Shown: positions 15,065 through 26,677 of the stretch, in pieces | How the letters are laid out: every line of letters begins with the position of its first letter | How positions within the stretch are numbered: position 1 is the first letter of the stretch | Assembly (NCBI RefSeq): GCF_036885605.1 | Contig: NZ_CP142523.1 | Coordinates: 2,170,001-2,234,000 of the forward strand | Direction: 5' to 3' | Source of the DNA: Janthinobacterium sp. TB1-E2 | Lineage (GTDB): Bacteria; Pseudomonadota; Gammaproteobacteria; Burkholderiales; Burkholderiaceae_D | DNA length: 64,000 nucleotides | The notes under the pieces: generated by a model | What the model was told of the DNA's origin: nothing | Database searches by the model: none | What the model saw: only the letters and a program-made list of their open reading frames with translations | Made by a program: the position numbers and the translations under genes

Positions 15065-15559
15065 TTAGCGGCCGGGCTGGCGCGGCGGCACCACGCCCGT
15101 GTTGCCCGAGGTGCCGGAATTGCCCGTGTTGCCGGTGTTACCCGAGGTGCCAGAGTTGCCGGTATTGCCGGAAGTCCCCGATGTCCCTGACGTGCCCGAA
15201 GTTCCTGACGTGCCTGTGCCGCCCGTATTGCCGTTCATGTTTTGCGTGCCGCTGCGCGCGGCGTTGCCTGCGGACTGGCCGGCGCTGCCCGGGGTACCGC
15301 CGCCCGAATTGGTGCCGCTGGTGGATTGTCCCGTCGTATCGTTGTTGCGCGATTTGCCGGATTTCTGCTTCTGTTTCTTGTCATGCTTGCGCGGCGCCGT
15401 GTCGTCCTGTCGCGTATTTTGCTGCGTATCTTGCTGGGCCGCCGTGCCCGTGTTACCGGTGTTGCCTGTGGTATTGCTATTGCCCGTCGATTGCGCCTGA
15501 GCCATGGCGGCTGCGCCGCCCAGCAGCAAGGCGGCCAGCATCAATGCAGATGGTTTCAT
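15065..15559 (-). CDS. Secreted low-complexity Gly/Thr/Ser/Asn repeat protein
   Basis: The protein has 164 residues. The start is the ATG at 15559 with GAAGGAG seven bases upstream. The signal peptide ends AQAQ. The mature part starts STGNSNTTGNTGNTG, then has a basic patch (RKHDKKQKQKSGKSR), then a long region made of GTS and NTG tripeptides with almost no hydrophobic residues. It is predicted to be disordered and probably extracellular or periplasmic. Its N-terminus resembles that of the protein at 14080-14409. The repeat-coding DNA consists of near-identical 9-base units, so length variation between strains is likely. Function is unknown; adhesive or matrix roles are only a guess. Confidence 0.65.
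   Translation of the reverse strand: MKPSALMLAALLLGGAAAMAQAQSTGNSNTTGNTGNTGTAAQQDTQQNTRQDDTAPRKHDKKQKQKSGKSRNNDTTGQSTSGTNSGGGTPGSAGQSAGNAARSGTQNMNGNTGGTGTSGTSGTSGTSGTSGNTGNSGTSGNTGNTGNSGTSGNTGVVPPRQPGR
15095..15232 (-). repeat. Tandem 9-base coding repeats (GTS/NTG tripeptides)
   Basis: This stretch inside the low-complexity gene is built of imperfect 9-base units on the minus strand encoding Gly-Thr-Ser and Asn-Thr-Gly/Gly-Asn-Thr. Unit boundaries stay in frame, so gain or loss of units would change protein length without a frameshift. It is a coding minisatellite, not a CRISPR array. Confidence 0.7.
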
Positions 15560-15675
15560 GGGAACTCCTTCTCGTGGCATGAAGTGGAGTCACGATTCTG
15601 GCATGCGCGGGCAGGGCGGCAAGTAGGAGCGCGCCGCCCGCGGCTGTGGGTGCATGGCTGGCCGTGGCGCAGGCG

Positions 15676-17022
15676 TCAGCGGAATTGCTCGGTCGAAATA
15701 TCGAAACGCTTGAGCTTGTCGTACAGGGTTTTCTTGGGAATATTCAGGCTGGCCGCCGCGTCGATGACGTTGCCGTTGTGGCGGCGCAAGGCTTCCTCGA
15801 TGATGGAAATTTCGAACGTGTCCACTTGCTCGGCCAGCGACGCTTCGCGGCAGCCGGCCGGGCTCAGGGTGTCGTCGAGCAAGCCCAGCACGAAGCGGTC
15901 GGCCACATTGTGCAGCTCGCGCACATTGCCGGCCCAGCGCTGCGCCATCAGGGACGCGATCAGTTCACCGCTGACGAGGGCGGCCGGCTGGCCGTAGCGC
16001 AGCGCCGCCTGCAGTACGAAGAACTCGAACAGCAGCGGGATATCCTCGCGCCGGTTGCGCAAGGCGGGCAAAGTCAGGCTGGCCACGTTCAGGCGGTAAT
16101 ACAGGTCGGGACGGAATTTCCCCTGTTCCGCCAAGACATTCAAGTCTTCCTTGGCGGCGGCAATCACGCGGAAATTGACGGAAATGAGTTTGTTGGAACC
16201 GAGCCTCTCCACCTGCCGCTCCTGCAGCACGCGCAGCAGTTTCACTTGCAGGGCCAGCGGCATGCTTTCGATTTCATCGAGAAACAGGGTGCCGCCGTTC
16301 GCGTACTCGATCTTGCCGATGCGCTGGCGCTGCGCGCCTGTAAACGCGCCTTCCTCGTGGCCGAACAGTTCCGATTCGAAGATCGATTCGGGCAGGGCGC
16401 CGCAGTTGATCGCCACGAATGGATGATCGCGCCGCTCGCTGAAGTCGTGCAGGCAGCGGGCGATCAGTTCTTTTCCCGTCCCCGTTTCGCCGAGGATGAT
16501 GATATCGGCCGATTTCGGCGCCAGGTTCAGCACCAGCTGGCGCACCTTGGCCATGGCGGCGCTGCGGCCCACGATGCGTGCTTCGATGCCGACGCGCTGC
16601 TCGAGCTGGCGGCGCAAGTTCATGTTTTCCAGCACAAGGTGGCGCTTGTCGAGCGCGCGGCGGCACACTTCCACGAGCAAGTCGGCGGAAAACGGTTTTT
16701 CGATGAAATCGTAGGCGCCACGGCGCATGGCACCCACAGCCATCGACACGTCGCCGTGGCCGGTGACAAGGATGACGGGCAGGCTGGCATCCTGTGCCAC
16801 GGCGATATCGAGCAGTTTCAAGCCATCGATGCCCGGCAGCTTGATGTCGCTCAATAAAATGCCCGCAAATTCAGGCACCAGATAGGGCAGCGCCTCCTCG
16901 GCCGTGGCGACAGCCGTCACTTGCAAGCCCGCCAGTTCCAGCGATTGCCGGGCGCCCTTGCGCACGACGGCATCGTCTTCCACCAGCAGCACTTGCATGC
17001 CTTCAAAATTATTCTCGTGCAT
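15676..17022 (-). CDS. DctD-like sigma-54-dependent response regulator (NtrC family)
   Basis: The protein has 448 residues from the ATG at 17022, overlapping the kinase gene by 14 bases. The receiver domain (9-125) has acidic residues ED at 15-16, phosphoacceptor Asp59 and a conserved Lys. The AAA+ domain (about 145-380) has Walker A GETGTGKE, the sigma-54 contact loop GAFTGA and Walker B GGTLFLDE. A Fis-type helix-turn-helix closes the protein (residues 405-440, NVIDAAASLNIPKKTLYDKL). It should activate sigma-54 promoters after phosphorylation by its partner kinase. The likely target is the promoter at 21661-21677, ahead of the ABC genes in the same unit. DctD normally controls dicarboxylate uptake; the signal here is unknown. 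Confidence 0.93.
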   Translation of the reverse strand: MHENNFEGMQVLLVEDDAVVRKGARQSLELAGLQVTAVATAEEALPYLVPEFAGILLSDIKLPGIDGLKLLDIAVAQDASLPVILVTGHGDVSMAVGAMRRGAYDFIEKPFSADLLVEVCRRALDKRHLVLENMNLRRQLEQRVGIEARIVGRSAAMAKVRQLVLNLAPKSADIIILGETGTGKELIARCLHDFSERRDHPFVAINCGALPESIFESELFGHEEGAFTGAQRQRIGKIEYANGGTLFLDEIESMPLALQVKLLRVLQERQVERLGSNKLISVNFRVIAAAKEDLNVLAEQGKFRPDLYYRLNVASLTLPALRNRREDIPLLFEFFVLQAALRYGQPAALVSGELIASLMAQRWAGNVRELHNVADRFVLGLLDDTLSPAGCREASLAEQVDTFEISIIEEALRRHNGNVIDAAASLNIPKKTLYDKLKRFDISTEQFR

Positions 17023-18934
17023 CAGATGTTTCCTTGTCTCTCTCCCCCGGGTCGCAGCTCAGGGTGATGGTAAATTGTGCGCCGCCCCCTTCCTGCGCGC
17101 TGCGGTTGCGCACGGCCAGGGCGCTGCCGGCAGCGCGCAGTATGCCTGCGCTGATCGACAATCCCAAGCCCAGCCCGTGTTCCTTGGTGGTATAGAAGGG
17201 GTCGAAGATCTTGTCGAGCGAGGCCAGCGGGATGCCGGGGCCATTATCGGTGATATGCAGCACGGCAAGGCTGCCTTCGCGGCGCACCTGGAACCAGATT
17301 TGCACGGGCTCGTTTTCCGGCACGGCATCCATGGCGTTGGTGATCAGGTTGGTAAACACCTGTTCCAGGCCAATGGCGTTGCACAGCACGATGATGTCGT
17401 CCTCCAGCCAGCTTTCATGCAGGGTCAAACGCTGCGAGTTCTTGCGCGTGCGGATTTGCAGCATGGTTTGCGCGAACGCCTGGCGTACGCTGACGGGTTT
17501 GCGCGCATCGTCGCTACGCCGTGCAAAACCTTTCAGTTGCGACGTCACATAGCCGAGCCGCTTGACGAGGTCGGAAATGGTCGACAGGTTATCGAGCGCA
17601 TCGTCGATCTGGCCCCGCGCCAGGAACACCTTGGCATTGTCGGAAAACGTTTGCAGGGCGGCCAGCGGCTGGTTCAGCTCGTGCGTGACGCCGGCTGCCA
17701 TCTGGCCGATGGCCGCCAGCTTGCCGCTTTGCACCAGTTCCGCCTGGGCATAGCGCAAGGTTTGCTCGGCCCGCTCGCGTTCCGTCACCTCGGCTTGCAG
17801 GCGGCCGTTCGCGTGGACGAGGTCGGCCGTGCGCTGTTCTACCTTGATTTCCAGCTGTTCATAGGCGCGCGCCAGGGTTTGTTGCGCATTGAGCTTGTCG
17901 GCGATGCGGCGCCGGCGCTGGCGCGCATACATCAGGGCCAGCAGCAGCAAGGCCCAGCCCAGCGCGGCGGCGATGGCCGCGTTGCGCGCCGCCTCATTCA
18001 CCTGGTCGAGCTCGGCCAGCACCGTGATCTGCCATTGCAGCGGCCCCAGCGCGCGGTTCACGGCCAGGTAGTCGGCGCTGCCGGACAGGGCGGGGGTATC
18101 GCCCGTCTGCGGACGTTCCAGGGTCATCACGCTGGCGCCGTCGGCGAACTGGCGGCTGACGCGGTGCGGCAGGATGGGGAGATTCTCTTGCAGGAACTGG
18201 CGCTGTTCGCTGATGTCTTTCTTCGCGTCCGGCGACAGCGGGGCCAGGGTCTTGAACTTGAAGGCGGGCGTGGTGGCCAGGATGATCACGCCATTTGCAT
18301 CCTTGACCCAGATCTGTTCGCCCGCGCCGGGCGTGCGCCACGATTGCTCGATCCAGTCCAGGTTGACCTTGGCGGCGACGATGCCGATGATGCGTCCGTC
18401 GCGCTGCACGGGCTGCGAAATGAAATAGCCGGCCTCGAAGGTGGAAAAGCCGATGCCGTAAAAGCGGCCGATGCCGCCCGCGATCGCGTTCTTGAAATAC
18501 GGACGGAAACCGTAGTTGACACCCACGTACGAGCTGCGGTCTTGCCAGTTGCTTGACGCCAGGGTCGTGCCCTTGTCGTCGAGCACGTAGACGGCAAAGG
18601 CGCCTGCGCGGCGGTTCATGTCGACCAGGTAGGCGTTGATTTGCGTGACTTTGTCGGCGCTGGGCTGCTCCAGCAATTGCGCCACCGCATCGCTCTGGGC
18701 CACGGCCAGGGGCAGGAATTCGTACTTGTTGAGGGCGCCGCCGATGGATGCCGCATACAGTTCCGCGCGCGAATCGAGGGTGCGGTGCAATTCGTCGAGC
18801 TGGCGCTGCTTGACCCAGGCATACGACGCCCACGTCAGCACGGCCAGCGACCCCACGGCCAGCAGGGGGACGAATGGCCTTGGGGTCTGACCCGCCGGGT
18901 CAGACCCCAAATAAGTTTGCGGTCGCTTAATCAA
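17009..18934 (-). CDS. DctB-like membrane sensor histidine kinase
   Basis: The protein has up to 641 residues. One membrane helix lies near 24-43. A periplasmic Cache-type sensor follows (about 45-300, with YFKNAIAGGIGRFYG and GYFISQPV), then a second helix near 305-325. After a coiled coil (330-390) comes the dimerisation domain with His418 in GVTHELNQPLAAL, and an ATPase domain with the N box and DNGPGIP. It should phosphorylate the DctD-like regulator. The start is uncertain: the only upstream option is a TTG at 18934 whose ribosome-binding site is too close, and there is no ATG before the first helix. Codons 9-19 lie in a perfect palindrome. The gene begins six bases after the ABC ATPase gene, implying one transcript. 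Confidence 0.9.
   Translation of the reverse strand: MIKRPQTYLGSDPAGQTPRPFVPLLAVGSLAVLTWASYAWVKQRQLDELHRTLDSRAELYAASIGGALNKYEFLPLAVAQSDAVAQLLEQPSADKVTQINAYLVDMNRRAGAFAVYVLDDKGTTLASSNWQDRSSYVGVNYGFRPYFKNAIAGGIGRFYGIGFSTFEAGYFISQPVQRDGRIIGIVAAKVNLDWIEQSWRTPGAGEQIWVKDANGVIILATTPAFKFKTLAPLSPDAKKDISEQRQFLQENLPILPHRVSRQFADGASVMTLERPQTGDTPALSGSADYLAVNRALGPLQWQITVLAELDQVNEAARNAAIAAALGWALLLLALMYARQRRRRIADKLNAQQTLARAYEQLEIKVEQRTADLVHANGRLQAEVTERERAEQTLRYAQAELVQSGKLAAIGQMAAGVTHELNQPLAALQTFSDNAKVFLARGQIDDALDNLSTISDLVKRLGYVTSQLKGFARRSDDARKPVSVRQAFAQTMLQIRTRKNSQRLTLHESWLEDDIIVLCNAIGLEQVFTNLITNAMDAVPENEPVQIWFQVRREGSLAVLHITDNGPGIPLASLDKIFDPFYTTKEHGLGLGLSISAGILRAAGSALAVRNRSAQEGGGAQFTITLSCDPGERDKETSDARE
18880..18910. 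repeat. Perfect 31-base palindrome (GGGGTCTGACCC type) at the kinase gene start
   Basis: The arms TTGGGGTCTGACCC and GGGTCAGACCCCAA (14 bases each) flank a GCC spacer. The repeat lies inside the predicted kinase reading frame and 31 bases after the ABC ATPase stop codon. As RNA it would form a very stable hairpin, which could lower downstream expression or protect the upstream mRNA. It has the look of a REP-type dispersed palindrome. Only one copy is in this window, so its dispersal must be checked in the genome. Confidence 0.75.
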
Positions 18935-18940
18935 GCTCCC

Positions 18941-19732
18941 TCAATCGGCGGTACTGGCCATGGTTTCGGCATTGTGATGACGCTGCTGCTCTTCCATCAC
19001 CATCTCGCCCAGCATGCGCTTGAGGCGGTTGAACTCGGGGTCGCTCGGGTCGCGCGGGCGGGGCAGGTCGATGGCCACGTCGCGCTTGATGGTGCCGGGA
19101 CGGTAGGTCATGACGATGGTGCGGTCGGCCAGGTAGATCGATTCCTCGATCGAGTGCGTGACGAACACGATGGTGGTGCCGAAGACTTTCCAGATTTTCA
19201 GCAATTCATCTTGCAGGTTGCGTCGCGTCAAGGCGTCCAGCGCGCCGAACGGTTCATCCATCAGCATGATCGGCGAATCGAGGGCCAGCACGCGGGCGAT
19301 GGCCACGCGCTGGCGCATGCCGCCCGACAAGTCTTTCGGGTAGCGGGCACGGAATTCCGTCAAGCCCAGCATGCTCAGCAGCATGTCGACCCGCTCCTTG
19401 ATCTCGGCCGGCGTCTTGCCGGCGATTTCCAGGCCAAAAGCGATATTGCTCTCGATGGTCATCCAGGGGAACAGCGCGTATTCCTGGAACACCATGCCGC
19501 GGTCGGGGCCGGGCTCGGTGATCAGCTTGCCGCCGGCCAGGATCTGGCCCGACGTCGGCTGCGAAAAGCCGGCGATGGCGTTGAGCAGGGTCGACTTGCC
19601 GCAGCCGGACGGTCCCAGCAGGCAGATGAATTCGCCGCTGGCGATTTCCAGGTTGATGTCCTTCAGGGCGATGACGTCCGCGCCGCCCGTGGTGAAGATT
19701 TTATTGACTGCATTGATATTGATCGTGGTCAT
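18941..19732 (-). CDS. ABC transporter ATP-binding protein, nitrate/sulfonate/taurine (NitT/TauT) family
   Basis: The protein has 263 residues. I chose the ATG at 19732 (MTTINI...), which has GAGAGGAAC upstream; a longer frame lacks a ribosome site. Walker A is GPSGCGKST, the signature is LSGGMRQRVAIA, and Walker B with D-loop is LMDEPFGALDALTR, followed by the switch His in FVTHS. This is the standard TauB/SsuB form. It should power uptake through the permease encoded just upstream, with 11 bases between the genes. The C-terminus (about 235-263) is a short polar tail, QQRHHNAETMASTAD. The substrate cannot be read from the ATPase. Confidence 0.95.
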   Translation of the reverse strand: MTTININAVNKIFTTGGADVIALKDINLEIASGEFICLLGPSGCGKSTLLNAIAGFSQPTSGQILAGGKLITEPGPDRGMVFQEYALFPWMTIESNIAFGLEIAGKTPAEIKERVDMLLSMLGLTEFRARYPKDLSGGMRQRVAIARVLALDSPIMLMDEPFGALDALTRRNLQDELLKIWKVFGTTIVFVTHSIEESIYLADRTIVMTYRPGTIKRDVAIDLPRPRDPSDPEFNRLKRMLGEMVMEEQQRHHNAETMASTAD

Positions 19733-19743
19733 GGCCGTTCCTC

Positions 19744-20565
19744 TCAGTGTTCCAGGCCGCGGTGCCACTGCAGCAAATGATTATTCAGGGCATTCATGGC
19801 GATATCGATGGCCAGGCCGAACAGGCCGATGGTAAACATGCCGGCGATAATCTTGTCGGACCAGAAGTACTCGCGCGCTTCCAGGATGCGGAAACCGAGG
19901 CCGCTGTTGACGGCGATCATTTCCGCTACGATCACGACGATGAAGGCCGTGCCCATGCCGATGCGCGCGCCGGCCAGGATGTACGGCGTGGCGGCCGGCA
20001 GGATGACGCGGCGGAACATCGTCATCTGGCTGGCGCCCAGGTTGCGTGCGGCGCGGATATAGATGCCGTCGACCTGGCGCACGCCGGCGATGGTATTCAT
20101 CAGCACGGGGAAGAAGGAGCCGATGCTGATCAGGAAGAAGGCGGGCGGATTGCCCAGGCCGAACCACAAGATTGCCAGCGGAATGTAGGCGATCGGCGGA
20201 ATCGGGCGCAGCACCTGCACCAGCGGGTCGAACAGTTTATAGATGGTCTTGTTGGTGCCCATCAGCAAGCCTAGCGGCAAAGCCAGGCCGGCACCGATGG
20301 CAAAGCCGCCCAGCACGCGCGACAGGCTGGCCCAGGCGTCGTGCGGCAATTCGCCGGAGAACATCCACACGAGGTAATTGCCCGCTTCGGGCGTGTACGC
20401 TTCCATGGGAATCAGGTATTCATACCACTTCACGACCACGGCGACGGGCGAGGGCAGGATTTGCGGGTTGATCCAGCCGAACGTGGACATGGCTTGCCAC
20501 AGCAGCAGCACGGCGACGGGCACGGCGGCGCCGTGCGCGAAGCGTTTCATCATTTGAATATTCAT
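19744..20565 (-). CDS. ABC transporter permease, NitT/TauT family
   Basis: The protein has 273 residues from the ATG at 20565. Six membrane helices are visible, from about residue 12 (AVPVAVLLLWQAMS) to 262. The coupling-loop region contains AARNLGASQMTMFRRVILPAATPYILAG, which docks on the ATPase. The family (TauC/SsuC/NrtB) imports small anionic or heterocyclic compounds such as nitrate, taurine, sulfonates or thiamine precursors. The gene is 15 bases from the binding-protein gene and 11 from the ATPase gene, so the three form one operon. Confidence 0.93.
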   Translation of the reverse strand: MNIQMMKRFAHGAAVPVAVLLLWQAMSTFGWINPQILPSPVAVVVKWYEYLIPMEAYTPEAGNYLVWMFSGELPHDAWASLSRVLGGFAIGAGLALPLGLLMGTNKTIYKLFDPLVQVLRPIPPIAYIPLAILWFGLGNPPAFFLISIGSFFPVLMNTIAGVRQVDGIYIRAARNLGASQMTMFRRVILPAATPYILAGARIGMGTAFIVVIVAEMIAVNSGLGFRILEAREYFWSDKIIAGMFTIGLFGLAIDIAMNALNNHLLQWHRGLEH

Positions 20566-20580
20566 CGTGACACTTTCAGA

Positions 20581-21582
20581 TTAGCGAGGTGCGTAGGACT
20601 TCTTGGCTTTTTCCAGCAGATCCAGCTTGACCCAATCCTTGGCGGCAGGCGCTTTGGCCATGCGGCCCACTCCGAATTTCACCATGTAGTCGGTGGTCAG
20701 CTGCACGTGGCTTTGCGTGATGTCTTCCGTGAAGATGGCGTTGTCGATGGCGTCGCGGTAATCGTCAGAGGTGATCTGGTTCTTGAACATCGATTCGCGC
20801 ACGTATTTTTCCGCCAGTTTCGGGTCGGCCAAAAATGCCCGCGTGGCGGCGACGAAGCAATCCATGAAGCGCTGGGCCACGGCCGGCTTTTCCTTGTACA
20901 TTTTTTCCGTCATCACGAGCGCGCGCACGGGCTCGCCCAGCGGCGTGTCGTAGGGCTTGATGATGGCCGCGCCATATTTCTTGTGGATGGCCTGGGTCGA
21001 GTACGGCTCGGACTGGCTCATGACGTCGATATCCTTGGTCAGCAGCGCCTGGTTCAGGTCCGGGTAGCCCATGTACAGGATCTGCACGTCCTTGCCCGGT
21101 TTGTCGGACCAGGTCAGCTTGGCTTTGGTCAATTCGGCAAACAGCAGGATTTCCTGCGGACCGCCGCGCGTGACGCCGACTTTCTTGCCTTTCAGGTCGG
21201 CGATACCCTTGATGTTCAGGTCGGGACGGCCGACGATCTGCACGCCGCCCTTGGCAAAGCCGCCCACCAGGTACACGGGCAAGCCCGTGGCGCGGCCCGT
21301 GATGGCCGCTTCCAGCGCGCTGGCGGATACGTCGATTTCGCCGGCGATCATGGCCGGCACGATGTCGAGGCCCTTGGCGAAAATGCGCTCTTCGATCTTC
21401 AGGTCGTATTTCGGCGCGATTTCCTTCATGTAGGCGACGGCGCCGTAATGGGCGAATTTCAGGTTGCCCAGGCGTACGGTATCGGCCGCGTGGACGGCCA
21501 GCGGGAATTGCGCGGCCAGTGCGACGGCCACGGCCAGTGCCTTGGTGTTGAGGAAGGACGAGATGCGGAAGGTGCTTGCCAT
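20581..21582 (-). CDS. NMT1/TauA-like ABC substrate-binding protein
   Basis: The protein has 333 residues from the ATG at 21582, with GGAG eight bases upstream. The signal peptide (1-32) ends VHA-A and has no lipobox, so the protein is periplasmic and soluble. The fold is a periplasmic binding protein type II: DTVRLGNLKFAHYGAVAYMK, IKGIADLKGKKVGVTRGGPQ and GEIDVSASALEAAI match the nitrate/sulfonate/NMT1 class. The ligand is not evident. It is the first gene of the unit and sits directly behind a sigma-54 promoter. Sensing by a DctB-type kinase in the same operon suggests a carbon or nitrogen source available in the environment. Confidence 0.92.
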   Translation of the reverse strand: MASTFRISSFLNTKALAVAVALAAQFPLAVHAADTVRLGNLKFAHYGAVAYMKEIAPKYDLKIEERIFAKGLDIVPAMIAGEIDVSASALEAAITGRATGLPVYLVGGFAKGGVQIVGRPDLNIKGIADLKGKKVGVTRGGPQEILLFAELTKAKLTWSDKPGKDVQILYMGYPDLNQALLTKDIDVMSQSEPYSTQAIHKKYGAAIIKPYDTPLGEPVRALVMTEKMYKEKPAVAQRFMDCFVAATRAFLADPKLAEKYVRESMFKNQITSDDYRDAIDNAIFTEDITQSHVQLTTDYMVKFGVGRMAKAPAAKDWVKLDLLEKAKKSYAPR

Positions 21583-21626
21583 GCTGTTGTCTCCAAAAGG
21601 TAGATGGTTTTTATATAGTGGGTCAG

Positions 21627-21646
21627 GCCGCCGCTCTGATGGCGGC
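21627..21646 (-). promoter_or_regulatory. Hairpin in the leader of the ABC/two-component operon
   Basis: The arms GCCGCC (21627-21632) and GGCGGC (21641-21646) can pair around an eight-base loop. It lies just after the predicted transcription start near 21650 and 45 bases before the first start codon. It may stabilise the 5' end of the mRNA; no riboswitch fold is recognisable. Confidence 0.4.
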
Positions 21647-21660
21647 TATGAAAATATAAA

Positions 21661-21677
21661 AGCATCTTCCGTGCCAG
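21661..21677 (-). promoter_or_regulatory. Sigma-54 (-24/-12) promoter of the ABC/dctBD-like operon
   Basis: Read on the minus strand the sequence is CTGGCACGGAAGATGCT. It matches the sigma-54 consensus TGGCACG-N4-TTGCW at all positions but one, with the required GG-N10-GC spacing. The start of transcription would be near 21650, giving a 68-base leader. The presence of a GAFTGA-containing activator in the same operon makes this assignment convincing. Confidence 0.8.
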
Positions 21678-21759
21678 TGGAGCGCATTTTGGCGTTTATT
21701 GCAAGTGATTGTTTATAAAGGTTTAATTTGAATCTATTGAAATTGGGAAATGGCGAGAT

Positions 21760-21805
21760 TCCGCCTTTCCGCACGGCGAGGGGAAAGACTGTGCGGATTG
21801 CCGCA
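21760..21805. promoter_or_regulatory. Upstream activator sites for the sigma-54 promoter
   Basis: A perfect dyad TGCGG-ATTG-CCGCA lies at 21792-21805. A degenerate copy, TCCGC-CTTT-CCGCA, lies at 21760-21773, with centres 32 bases apart, or three helical turns. They are about 90-125 bases upstream of the -24 element, the normal distance for NtrC-family enhancers. The CGG-N4-CCG layout resembles sites described for DctD/AauR-type regulators, so the DctD-like protein is the likely binder. Confidence 0.6.
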
Positions 21806-21880
21806 TTTTGACGGGCGGGTTCGATGTCGGCTGCGGGCTCACAGCAGGTGAACCTTCATGGCGCGACCGACTCCAATCGT

Positions 21881-23283: not shown

Positions 23284-23452
23284 CGTTGGGACAGGCCGTT
23301 TCATGTCGTCTGATTGAAAAGACTGCAAGCATCCCCATGTGGGCTGGACTGCTGCCCGCAACGCGCGGGTTCACTTGAAGGAGCTTGTCCTTGTCTGCCT
23401 ACGCCGCCTCGTTATCGTGTCTGCCACTGCCTTGCCTGAAACGGGACTTCGC

Positions 23453-24325
23453 ATGAACCCGCTGCTGTGGATCGCCCTCGTCACGGCCGCCATCGTCTTT
23501 TCGCTGTGGTTACCCCGCTGGCGCTTGAAGCGGGCCCTGGCCAGGCCCTTGCCGGCTGAAGGCCTGGCCGTGCTGGAAAAGAATATTCCCGTGTATCCGC
23601 GCATGCCGGCGCCGCTGCAGGAACAATTGCGCCGTCTCGTCGTGCAATTCCTGTATCAGAAGAAATTCGTCGGTTGCGGCGGCCTGGAGATCACGGACGA
23701 GATGCGCTATACCATCGCCGGCCAGGCTTGCCTGCTGCTGCTGAACCGCCAGACGCAGGTGTATCCGGAACTCGACACCATCCTCGTGTATCCCACGGAA
23801 TTCATCGTCACGCGCGATGAAGTGGGGCCGGGCGGCGTGGTGACGCCATCGGCCAATGGGCTATTGGGCGAATCCTGGGGCGATGGCAGAGTCGTGCTGG
23901 CCTGGGACCATGTGCAGCGCGGCGCGGCCGACTGGACCGATGGGCACAATGTCGTGCTGCATGAATTTGCCCACCAGCTCGACAGCGAATCGGGCGCCGC
24001 GAATGGCGCGCCGTATTTGCCCAGCGTGTCGAGCTACCGCAGCTGGGCCACCGTGCTGTCGCGCGACTTCGACAACCTGCGCCACGACGCCATCTACCAG
24101 CAGCACAGCGTGATGGACCATTACGGCGCCACGAATCCCGCCGAATTCTTTGCCGTGGCCACGGAAACCTTCTTTGAAAAACCGTACCAGATGGCCGAGC
24201 ACCACGAAGAACTGTACGCGCAATTCTTGCAGTACTACAAGGTCGACCCGCGCGACTGGATGGCGCCACCCGTGGAGCCCGAGCACATGGCCTCGCCGTT
24301 TCCCAACTACGCGGCACATTGGTAA
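23453..24325 (+). CDS. MtfA-like zinc peptidase (family M90) with N-terminal membrane anchor
   Basis: The protein has 290 residues from the ATG at 23453. A hydrophobic helix at residues 3-20 followed by PRWRLKR predicts an inner-membrane anchor with the body in the cytosol; E. coli MtfA (about 265 residues) lacks it. The zinc site HEFAH lies in VVLHEFAHQLDSE (near residue 172), and the third ligand is probably the Glu in EFFAVATETFFEKP. MtfA regulates the glucose phosphotransferase system by binding Mlc and has aminopeptidase activity; whether this applies here is unknown. It is convergent with the LytR-type regulator gene, four bases apart. Confidence 0.88.
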   Translation: MNPLLWIALVTAAIVFSLWLPRWRLKRALARPLPAEGLAVLEKNIPVYPRMPAPLQEQLRRLVVQFLYQKKFVGCGGLEITDEMRYTIAGQACLLLLNRQTQVYPELDTILVYPTEFIVTRDEVGPGGVVTPSANGLLGESWGDGRVVLAWDHVQRGAADWTDGHNVVLHEFAHQLDSESGAANGAPYLPSVSSYRSWATVLSRDFDNLRHDAIYQQHSVMDHYGATNPAEFFAVATETFFEKPYQMAEHHEELYAQFLQYYKVDPRDWMAPPVEPEHMASPFPNYAAHW

Positions 24326-24329
24326 GTAT

Positions 24330-25019
24330 TCAGCCCAGCAGCCGCTGTTTCAGCGCGGGATAACTGCTGCGCGACACGGGTATGCCCGTGCTGGTTTGCG
24401 TGTCGAGCGCGTATTTGCCGCCTGCCGCTATCTGCAGCCGTTTGAAACCGAGGCTGTTGACGATGTAGGAGCGGTGCACGCGCAGGAAGTGGGGCGGCAG
24501 CAGGGCCATGAGCTTGTCGATGGCCAGGTCGTGAAAACACTGTTCGCCGCTGCGCAGCACGATATTGCTGTAGTGGCCATCGGCTTGCACATGGTCGATG
24601 TCGGCCATGGCGATCCATTCCAGCGCGCCGCGTTTCTTGACGGCCAGCGAGGCCGCTTCCGTATGCCGTCCCGTGTAGCGTTGCAGCGCCTTGTGCAGGC
24701 GCTCGCGGCTGAAAGGCTTGGCAACGAAGTCGAGCACGCCGAACTCGAAGGCCGTGATCGAGCGTTCCGCGTGGGCCGAGACGATGATGGTCTGGAACGG
24801 GGCTGTCTGGGCCAGACGCAGCAAGTCATAGCCGTCCGCGCCATGCAGGTTCAAGTCCAGCAGCAGCAAGTCGACCTGTTCCTCGGCCAGCGCGGCCAGC
24901 GCTTGCGGGACATTGTCATGCAGCACCAGCGCCGTCAGGCGCGCGCCGAAATGCGCGCGCACCTCGCGTTCGAGGCCTTGCGCGATCAGCGGTTCATCTT
25001 CCAGTATCAACACATTCAT
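24330..25019 (-). CDS. LytTR-family response regulator (LytR/AlgR type)
   Basis: The protein has 229 residues from the ATG at 25019, overlapping the kinase gene by four bases (ATGA). The receiver domain (1-120) has acidic residues near position 7 (LEDEP), the phosphoacceptor Asp in LLLLDLNLHG and the conserved Lys in VAKPF. The LytTR DNA-binding domain (about 130-229) shows the typical DIDHVQADGHYSNI, HFLRVHRSYIVN and the final PVSRSSYPALKQRL. Such regulators control cell-surface, metabolite-uptake or biofilm genes. It forms a two-component system with the upstream kinase; no target is evident. Confidence 0.93.
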   Translation of the reverse strand: MNVLILEDEPLIAQGLEREVRAHFGARLTALVLHDNVPQALAALAEEQVDLLLLDLNLHGADGYDLLRLAQTAPFQTIIVSAHAERSITAFEFGVLDFVAKPFSRERLHKALQRYTGRHTEAASLAVKKRGALEWIAMADIDHVQADGHYSNIVLRSGEQCFHDLAIDKLMALLPPHFLRVHRSYIVNSLGFKRLQIAAGGKYALDTQTSTGIPVSRSSYPALKQRLLG

Positions 25020-26677
25020 GGCGCCGCCGGCAAGGTAAACGTGAGGCGCCAGCCAGCCTGCTGCTGTTCGCTCGCATATTCACGCTCATAGCGGGCCGCA
25101 TCGCCAAACACGGCGTGCAGGCTGGCGCGGATGTACTGTTCGCCCACGCCGCTGCCCGCATGCGGTCGCGCCTCGCCTTCGGGCAGCAGCAGGGTGAGCA
25201 CGTGCGTTTGCGCGCGTTGTGCGATGCTCAGGATAAAGACCGCGCCATGGCGGTAGCGGTTGTGGCTGAACGCATTTTCCAGCGCCGTCAGCAAGGTGGC
25301 GGGCGGCACGGTGATGCCCGCCGCCTCGCCATTGAGCTGCAGGCTGCATTGCTGCTGCAGCCGCGTGCCCATGATGCTCAGGTAGTTCTCGCACAGGGCC
25401 AGTTCCTGCGTCAGGGCGATGCTGGGCTGCTGGGCGAATTCGTTGAGCATGCGCAACTCGGCGCCCAGTGCCTCGATGAAGGTTTCGGCCGCCTGCGGCG
25501 ATTGCGCGTTGAGTTCGCTGATCAGGCTCAGGGAATTCATCAGGAAATGCGGTTGCATGCTTTTACGCAAGAGCTGGTTTTCCAGCTGCTGGGCGCGTGC
25601 CGCCTTGCTGCGTTCGCGCAGCAGCTGGGCCAGCAGTTGCGCGCACAGGGGCAGTAGCATGAAGCACACGACGAGGGCGAAGCCCCCTTCGGCAAACTGG
25701 CTGCCCGTCAGCAGGAACAGGGCGCACGAGGCCAGCGCGATCAAGGTGCCGCCGAGACTGCCCGGCAGGCGGCGCCACAGGGCGCCCAGGTTGAGCGCCA
25801 GGCTCGCTGCCAGACCCGTCAGAAACATCGACCAGCAGCGCGAGTCGAAATGCGCGGGCAGCGCGCCGGCCAGCGCGATGCCCGCCAGCAGTACCGCCGC
25901 CGCCAGCGGCCAGCGCGGCAGCCGGTATGCCGTATAAAAATACAGGGGCAGCAAGGCGGAAAACAGCCAGGTCAGGGCGCTGACGGCGTACAGGCGCGGC
26001 AAATGCATGGGATAGGCATAGCCGGCAACGCTGCGCCAGAGTTCCACCACCAGCAGCAGCGCCGCCACCAGGCACAGCGCGGCAAACATGGCCCAGTGCC
26101 GCTGCCGCTGGTACAGCGCCGTCAAGGCGAGAAACAGCAGGGCGACGGCACCCAAGGCCCCGGCCAGCAGCAGCGGCGGCAGCCGGTACCAGGCCAGCGC
26201 CGCGCGGTAGCCTTGCCGGTCGACCAGGTACAGCGCGTACAGTGGCGACGCCAGGCGGGCAGGCGCCTGCTGCGTCGACAGCAGCAGGCGCAGGTGATGT
26301 CTGCCCATGGCCAACTGCCGTGGCGTCAGGTGGATGGCGAAATCGATGTCGCCCGCGCGTTCCCCGCTGGCCTGGCGGGCCGGTTGGCCATTGCTGCCGA
26401 TCAATATGTCATCGAGCCAGACTTCGCTGGAAGCCAGCGCCGACAGCACCAGCAGCTGCGTCGACGAGGGCGTGGCGGCCACAGTGAGGTCGCGCTCGAC
26501 GCACAGCAGCAGGCCCGGCTTGAGCAACTGGTACAGCGAGGCGGCGGGCGTGGTGCTGGTTGTGCCGCAGGCGCGCCAGCCTTCGGCCAGCGATAGCCTG
26601 TCCATGCCCATGGCGAAAGAGGGCAAGGCCAGGCAGCACAGCAGCAGGTAGCGGAAGCAGGAGGGCATGGCGGGCAT
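25016..26677 (-). CDS. LytS/YehU-type sensor histidine kinase with 7-TM sensor region
   Basis: The protein has 553 residues from the ATG at 26677 (an alternative Met lies three codons on). After a signal-like segment, residues 25-165 form an extracytoplasmic domain of the 7TMR-DISM-extracellular type. Seven hydrophobic helices follow at about 170-350. The cytosolic kinase belongs to the His_kinase (LytS) class, with the phospho-histidine in MQPHFLMNSLSLISELN near residue 372 and an ATPase region with ALENAFSHNRY. It overlaps its response regulator by four bases. The signal is probably an extracellular small molecule or carbohydrate, as is usual for DISM sensors, but this is inference. Confidence 0.9.
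   Translation of the reverse strand: MPAMPSCFRYLLLCCLALPSFAMGMDRLSLAEGWRACGTTSTTPAASLYQLLKPGLLLCVERDLTVAATPSSTQLLVLSALASSEVWLDDILIGSNGQPARQASGERAGDIDFAIHLTPRQLAMGRHHLRLLLSTQQAPARLASPLYALYLVDRQGYRAALAWYRLPPLLLAGALGAVALLFLALTALYQRQRHWAMFAALCLVAALLLVVELWRSVAGYAYPMHLPRLYAVSALTWLFSALLPLYFYTAYRLPRWPLAAAVLLAGIALAGALPAHFDSRCWSMFLTGLAASLALNLGALWRRLPGSLGGTLIALASCALFLLTGSQFAEGGFALVVCFMLLPLCAQLLAQLLRERSKAARAQQLENQLLRKSMQPHFLMNSLSLISELNAQSPQAAETFIEALGAELRMLNEFAQQPSIALTQELALCENYLSIMGTRLQQQCSLQLNGEAAGITVPPATLLTALENAFSHNRYRHGAVFILSIAQRAQTHVLTLLLPEGEARPHAGSGVGEQYIRASLHAVFGDAARYEREYASEQQQAGWRLTFTLPAAP

Follow-up and report, generated by a model that had tools for sequence, protein, structure and literature searches.

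The closest described counterpart of the system reported here is AatJQMP/AauSR of Pseudomonas, an ATP-binding cassette (ABC) importer of glutamate and aspartate which shares one locus with its own DctBD-type kinase/regulator pair and has an RpoN promoter (PMC7962211, PMC7386598). This importer has two permeases (AatQM), and its site reads TTCGG-N4-CCGAA. In the classical DctBD systems of Rhizobium and Pseudomonas, the target of the pair is a symporter gene, dctA, controlled with sigma-54 through the box TGTGCGgnnntCCGCACA (PMC11077940), and MifSR is a DctBD-type pair for a C5 dicarboxylate whose target is a 2-oxoglutarate symporter (PMC7962211). KgtP, which takes up glutarate in E. coli, is a proton-coupled permease and not an ABC system; the 2025 paper that identified it states that a microbial glutarate uptake transporter had never been reported before (PMC12622518). 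In four beta-proteobacteria, ABC importers were modelled for diacids of C7 and longer and symporters for those of C4 to C6, and one ABC importer also affected adipate (PMC12543098). Here we describe a putative five-gene operon of the soil bacterium Janthinobacterium sp. TB1-E2, located in a stretch of 64,000 nucleotides (contig NZ_CP142523.1, positions 2,170,001 to 2,234,000; hereafter the window), in which a NitT/TauT-type ABC importer is combined with a DctB/DctD-type pair and a predicted sigma-54 promoter.

The window (G000:C1:2170001-2234000 in our numbering) belongs to a host genome of 6.31 Mb in one contig, and its nearest named relatives in the binding-protein search are Janthinobacterium. 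The gene order, gaps and overlap reported in the initial annotation are borne out by the coordinates, as follows:

20581-21582, minus strand: binding protein, 333 residues, NMT1/NMT1_2 (Pfam), of NitT/TauT (NMT1) type, periplasmic
19744-20565, minus strand: permease, 273 residues, BPD_transp_1 (Pfam), 15-base gap from the binding protein
18941-19732, minus strand: ATPase, 263 residues from ATG, ABC ATPase (Pfam), 11-base gap from the permease
17009-18934, minus strand: DctB-type sensor kinase, 641 residues from TTG (start uncertain), dCache_1 and HATPase_c, 6-base gap from the ATPase
15676-17022, minus strand: DctD-type sigma-54 response regulator, 448 residues, Response_reg, Sigma54_activat and HTH_8, 14-base overlap with the kinase

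The importer parts, namely, an NMT1-type binding protein, a BPD permease and an ABC ATPase, fit membership of the NitT/TauT-type ABC importers, and the receiver, AAA+ sigma-54 and Fis-type DNA-binding domains of the regulator fit that of the DctB/DctD type. For the ATPase, the ATG was taken and the longer GTG start of the open reading frame list was not used; the HisKA match of the kinase, at 26.8 bits, lies slightly below the cut-off of 26.9. None of the five proteins reached an NCBIfam cut-off among the best rows inspected (the best 25 rows for three proteins). Like AatJQMP/AauSR, the window has an ABC importer and its own DctBD-type pair in one locus, a predicted RpoN-type promoter and two upstream inverted-repeat sites; unlike it, the window has one permease, an NMT1-type binding protein and a box of the form TGCGG-N4-CCGCA. 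The DctBD-dctA systems, including one in the host itself, resemble the window in sensor type, regulator type, box (not seen within 450 bases of the host dctA) and sigma-54, whereas the target in the window is an ABC importer of the same operon. SsuABC, TauABC and NrtABC share folds and subunit types with the window importer, which differs in falling below the curated cut-offs inspected and in having DctBD-type regulators. Because AatJQMP/AauSR already places an ABC importer under RpoN and a DctBD-type pair of its own (PMC7962211, PMC7386598), the wiring is known, and the initial claim that no system of this composition had been described fails on this point. What seems new is the use of a DctBD-type circuit on a NitT/TauT-type importer, together with its cargo. 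In titles and abstract openings, with most subscription journals outside the coverage, we found no description of a NitT/TauT-type importer with such a pair, nor of a glutarate ABC importer.

Upstream of the binding-protein gene, a promoter and two activator boxes are predicted:

21661-21676, minus strand: sigma-54 -24/-12 promoter TGGCACGGAAGATGCT, from pattern search and comparison across loci
21792-21805, minus strand: DctD-type activator box TGCGGcaatCCGCA, with an 18-base form AATGCGGcaatCCGCACA at 21790-21807
21760-21773, minus strand: second, weaker (degenerate) box TGCGGaaagGCGGA, 32 bases from the first and nearer the gene

Transcription would start near 21650. The 18-base box agrees with the R. 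meliloti DctD site given above (PMC11077940) at 13 of 15 fixed positions, and box pairs 31-32 bases apart are present in several other loci. The host genome has rpoN, and the loosened pattern TGGCACN5WTGCW, fitted to the window site, occurs in it 20 times, against 6 for the reversed pattern. To extend the comparison, we used the binding-protein search, which gave 163 pattern matches, of which 134 were confirmed and the best 80 form the named set; upstream regions were scanned in 79 of these 80 loci, with dinucleotide shuffles as control. A sigma-54 site scoring at least 19 was found in all 18 Janthinobacterium loci (shuffle mean 0.64), 22 of 24 other kinase-bearing loci (0.98), 8/8 Azospirillum, 0/15 Acidobacteria-type and 6/14 other loci, the shuffle means being 0.4-1.0 overall. 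Boxes with at most one mismatch were found, in the same order, in 16/18, 11/24, 0/8, 2/15 and 3/14 loci, with shuffle means of 0.36-0.64. The sigma-54 promoter proposed in the initial annotation is hence backed by a -24/-12 site and a DctD-type box, which together with the comparison give good support to the predicted sigma-54 loop.

The best evidence that the pair may act on the importer promoter is the co-occurrence of kinase and site. In the pool of 111 loci, a sigma-54 site was found in 51 of 53 with an adjacent kinase versus 10 of 58 without; the figures are 40/42 versus 9/28 in the named set, and 10/10 with the pair versus 1/30 without in the further loci taken as a whole. Kinase presence was scored by tblastn, because the codon-score gene caller breaks down on some AT-rich loci (such as L066, L067 and L142, in our locus numbers). 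Fifteen loci in which the sequence downstream of the importer was too short were treated as undecided, those with too short an upstream region were passed over, and L137/L138, which duplicate L066/L067, were excluded; L139/L140 have the same identities and neighbours as L068/L069, so that two rows with neither kinase nor site are probably counted twice in the pool. The two kinase-bearing loci lacking a site, both Glaciimonas, score 18.5, slightly below the threshold, and seven of the ten loci with a site and no kinase are Azospirillum.

In Azospirillum itself (L094, L096, L100, L106, L109, L110, L117 and L119, all with a sigma-54 site), six of the eight loci contain a pair of boxes, spaced 32 bases apart and differing at the outermost bases. 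No pair is seen behind seven of these importers, the eighth locus ending early, and a regulator would therefore need to act from elsewhere.

The five-gene module is real and conserved. The complete order occurs in 41 of the 80 named loci, 33 by a strict rule and 8 more whose regulator overlaps the kinase and which that rule missed. Among the rest, no kinase follows the importer in 24, another 14 are incomplete or stop short, and L082 breaks off within the kinase gene. The complete order is present in 18/18 Janthinobacterium loci (L042-L059) and in J. fluminis, and also in Massilia, Glaciimonas, Pandoraea, Chromobacterium, Dechloromonas, Azonexus, Azospira and Azoarcus. The module reaches an alphaproteobacterium, on a Rhizobium lusitanum plasmid (L211, 8983-16045), with a sigma-54 site and with a dihydrodipicolinate synthase (DHDPS)-family gene behind the regulator; no box of the present type was found at that locus. 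That this exceeds chance is indicated by the eight same-genus genomes listed, the host included, which all have a close kinase match, that of G048 with one TGA counted within the matched stretch; the listing gives genomes lacking a match only in part. The binding protein is matched at E<=1e-90 in 53 of 141 genomes of the family. A wide spread in the class was rejected, as 2 of 369 class genomes (the host included) match at this threshold, and the distribution is patchy.

The self-contained module of the initial annotation agrees with an order conserved across several genera, and is partly contradicted by the seven Azospirillum loci, where importer and sigma-54 site occur with no pair behind. 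Conversely, two Oxalobacteraceae loci (L185, 6153-10667; L186, 6075-10849) carry a same-type kinase/regulator pair behind a Peripla_BP_6 protein, the importer being absent, and the pair of L186 adjoins an ffh gene; the pair is thus partly conserved away from ABC genes. A second importer clade lies near ffh in many Oxalobacteraceae (an ffh-cluster neighbour is present in 26 of 49 further loci, a ccsB-like one in 27), with a kinase/regulator pair behind some copies and none behind most. A kinase tree of 62 rows, made by a quick method, with long branches flagged and some 'other' labels drawn from only ~1.5 kb of flank, requires four changes of the importer-linked label, and was not used to argue for a single origin.

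Additional genes are inserted at some loci: a DctA-type symporter in Pandoraea (L081, 10625-11911), a DASS symporter in D. hortensis (L104, 10593-12056), a Peripla_BP_6 protein between permease and ATPase (L091, 9795-10916), and, between kinase and regulator, a gene encoding 120 residues and assigned to the 5-carboxymethyl-2-hydroxymuconate isomerase family (L098, 12406-12765). The latter forms one sequence cluster across 11 loci (L098 and ten others), with one member scanned against Pfam.

By sequence, the kinase has a DctB-type dCache sensor, as the initial annotation had it in proposing a DctB/DctD-type pair with a Cache domain. Its sensor matches the solved DctB structures 3e4o, 2zbb and 3by9 with E values of 4.6e-32 to 1.1e-29, and the periplasmic part aligns with the S. 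meliloti and V. cholerae DctB sensors across ~200-250 residues. The core motifs are SSNW, FRPYF, GRFYGIG, GYFIS and a later K in the window kinase, ASNW, FRDYF, AEHFAMG, GLYIS and K in S. meliloti DctB, and SSNW, WRPYF, SQYFALG, GYYYA and K in V. cholerae DctB, which suggests a common sensor frame and a pocket neighbourhood that is not identical. DctB, MifS and AauS are described as having an identical set of ligand residues (PMC8694187). The residues after GYF end in P in importer-linked rows (ISQP, IALP, VSQP, LSWP, LAAP, IAQP, LSVP) and do not in five dctA-linked rows; they were dropped as a specificity marker, since V. cholerae DctB has P too. The host genome also has a classical dctA-porin-dctB-dctD cluster, whose dctA has as its best sigma-54-like site AGGCATATCCTTTGCT, with a score of 19.5. 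Cross-talk with this promoter was rejected, because no box of the present type was found within 450 bases upstream, two mismatches allowed.

The nature of the cargo is suggested by genes of relatives. In six of the 80 named loci (L060, L061, L062, L063, L064 and L071), gcdH stands directly behind the ATPase gene, and in three of them sugCT follows; L061 and L071 end at the edge of the sequence. In J. fluminis and two Massilia, these genes appear between ATPase and kinase as one for an acyl-CoA dehydrogenase and one for a class III CoA-transferase. In family scans, for which the M. agilis copies were used, the best NCBIfam model of the transferase was succinate-glutarate CoA-transferase. The best solved relatives of the dehydrogenase were glutaryl-CoA dehydrogenases (bacterial, E 4.5e-234; human, 1.1e-168). 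The transferase matched succinate--hydroxymethylglutarate CoA-transferase 9br6 with 8.4e-107, second to an unnamed CaiB/BaiF protein. Enzymes of the gcdH and sugCT type act on glutarate, and their position behind the ATPase in relatives suggests that the cargo may be glutarate or a near dicarboxylate. We therefore consider a short dicarboxylate the most likely cargo, with glutarate the likeliest among these compounds.

In the host, gcdH and sugCT adjoin each other at 6.13 Mb (identities 86% and 64%), together with a divergent LysR gene. Among 25 genomes searched, gcdH was present in two copies in 4, in one copy in 19 and in none in 2. The two-copy cases all stem from the six gcdH loci, the second gcdH being found in the genomes of L060, L062, L063 and L064; the genome of L061, a draft metagenome-assembled genome, has one partial copy, and that of L071 was outside the search. 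The gcdH loci lie on either side of crown Janthinobacterium in the importer tree, a pattern which one gain and one loss, the latter in the window lineage, explain with two changes, and the window operon may thus have lost gcdH and sugCT.

From the genes and their order, the promoter and boxes with their comparative support, the sensor type, rpoN and the presence of gcdH-sugCT, we infer a phosphorelay, a single transcript, a dicarboxylate signal and a glutarate cargo that would operate together as follows. A short dicarboxylate in the periplasm would bind the dCache domain of the DctB-type kinase, which would phosphorylate the DctD-type regulator; this would bind the paired boxes at 21805-21760 and activate the sigma-54 promoter at 21676-21661. 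Activation would raise the binding protein, permease and ATPase, and the regulators via read-through, and the importer would take up the sensed or a close compound, most likely glutarate, to be degraded by the host's glutaryl-CoA dehydrogenase and CoA-transferase, whose genes lie at another place in the genome. With modest confidence, we thus lean towards a self-inducing uptake unit for a dicarboxylate, most likely glutarate, sensed by the operon's own kinase. If true, an ABC system that takes up glutarate and has a matching sensor would alter the division between ABC importers for C7+ diacids and symporters for C4-C6, would offer a glutarate-inducible sigma-54 switch, and would show that one DctBD circuit has been fitted to importers of unrelated families.

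Several observations weigh against this proposal. The window operon lacks gcdH, and does not contain the gcdH and sugCT combination by which a glutarate catabolic operon would be recognised; in L064, gcdH is found without sugCT behind it, and the inserted enzymes miss the curated NCBIfam cut-offs, with 217 of 470 bits for glutaryl-CoA dehydrogenase and 494 of 750 for succinate-glutarate CoA-transferase. The divergent LysR gene at the host gcdH suggests that catabolism lies outside the importer regulon there. Stand-alone gcdH copies were rejected as regulon members, as the exact box occurs in 0/17 of their upstream regions, the sole sigma-54 match scoring at least 20 in these regions being ~2.8 kb away from gcdH. 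Two gains of gcdH fit the importer tree equally well, the deciding forks (80/75 and 88/94) being below the support threshold. By itself, the box shows no enrichment across the genome (22 places versus 51 for the reversed pattern), and a relatedness-corrected test of the kinase/site link is suggestive only: among 8 independent pairs, agreement is seen in 5.4 on average, disagreement in 0 and no difference in 2.6, a one-sided trend whose median p of 0.0625 (range 0.0156-0.375) falls short of significance. Furthermore, other lineages have DctA, DASS, Peripla_BP_6 or DHDPS-type genes within or behind the operon, and so the cargo may differ among them. This agrees with an alternative that we regard as a real possibility on the less probable side, namely, the same self-inducing circuit with another small carboxylate as cargo (succinate, 2-oxoglutarate, a sugar acid or an aromatic acid), the glutarate genes of relatives being a local addition. 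The symporter genes of Pandoraea and D. hortensis and the DHDPS-type gene of R. lusitanum speak for it, as does the fact that the solved sensors nearest to the window kinase are C4-dicarboxylate sensors; yet gcdH and sugCT-type genes occur in the closest outside relatives of the window importer, and the host already has its dctA-porin-dctB-dctD cluster for C4 acids.

The coupling of the two halves of the operon can be questioned at the ATPase-kinase junction, where the following element lies:

18883-18907, no strand: REP-like (repetitive extragenic palindrome) GGGTCTGACCCGGCGGGTCAGACCC, within the 5' end of the kinase gene; 54 copies in the genome, 0 for the reversed control

In the window, the first kinase codons from the TTG run through this palindrome. 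In 14 of the 18 Janthinobacterium loci, the kinase ATG, as judged by eye, stands behind ACGGAGCACC and precedes conserved kinase sequence, so that the 6-base gap of the initial annotation holds only for the TTG start and differs from the situation in most relatives. As a separate observation, a member of a dispersed palindrome family appears here to have turned coding at the spot of the relatives' kinase ATG. The hairpin could uncouple the regulators, and it is a real possibility, though less likely than not, that the importer is under sigma-54 via the pair while kinase and regulator, uncoupled by the palindromes, have a low and constant expression of their own. The junction region folds strongly (z -3.76) and is variable: palindromes are present in many Janthinobacterium loci, relatives hold different ones or none (by eye), and the matched ATPase-to-kinase distance ranges from 7 to 272 bases in the 18 loci, the lowest values of which can include the palindrome itself. 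However, neither a terminator-like nor a sigma-70-like site was found at the junction; in L056, L057 and L059 it is short and, by eye, lacks such palindromes, and the regulator and kinase genes overlap. Finally, the importer might be a sulfonate system of the SsuA/TauA kind with an unrelated regulator pair next to it. SsuA and TauA are among the top folds for the binding protein, which was compared at fold level only, and SsuA_fam is its best NCBIfam match. Nevertheless, this match reaches 125.4 bits under a cut-off of 163.5, and that to TauA 32.8 versus 304.25, the kinase sensor is DctB-type, and the presence of the pair tracks the sigma-54 site of the importer, all of which makes a sulfonate importer very improbable.

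A narrower version of the self-inducing unit, which we deem unlikely, would be an ATP-driven importer dedicated to glutarate and equipped with a C5-dicarboxylate sensor of its own, the binding protein also serving to present the ligand to the kinase, and whose own gcdH and CoA-transferase genes were lost in crown Janthinobacterium at the now palindromic junction. In P. syringae, AatJ is needed together with AauS and AauR for gene induction, whereas the ATPase AatP is dispensable (PMC7386598), which implies that signalling through a pair of this kind can involve a binding protein. The idea of a co-sensor is drawn by analogy from this case, from the pairs of L185 and L186 with another binding protein, which are perhaps binding-protein-assisted sensors, and from an orphan paralogue of the binding protein in the host. 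The latter (L136; G000:C1 5734488-5735435, minus strand) is 61% identical and lies beside a ccsB-like gene, with no permease or ATPase of this family in the 14 kb covered; other genera keep a full importer at this place.

Regarding the surroundings of the operon, a Gly/Thr/Ser/Asn-rich repeat protein with a collagen match slightly below cut-off is encoded directly downstream (15065-15580). Nearby, the window encodes an M90 peptidase on the opposite strand (23339-24325), which we take to be of the MtfA type, and a pair formed by a LytTR-type regulator and a His_kinase-type sensor (24330-26677).

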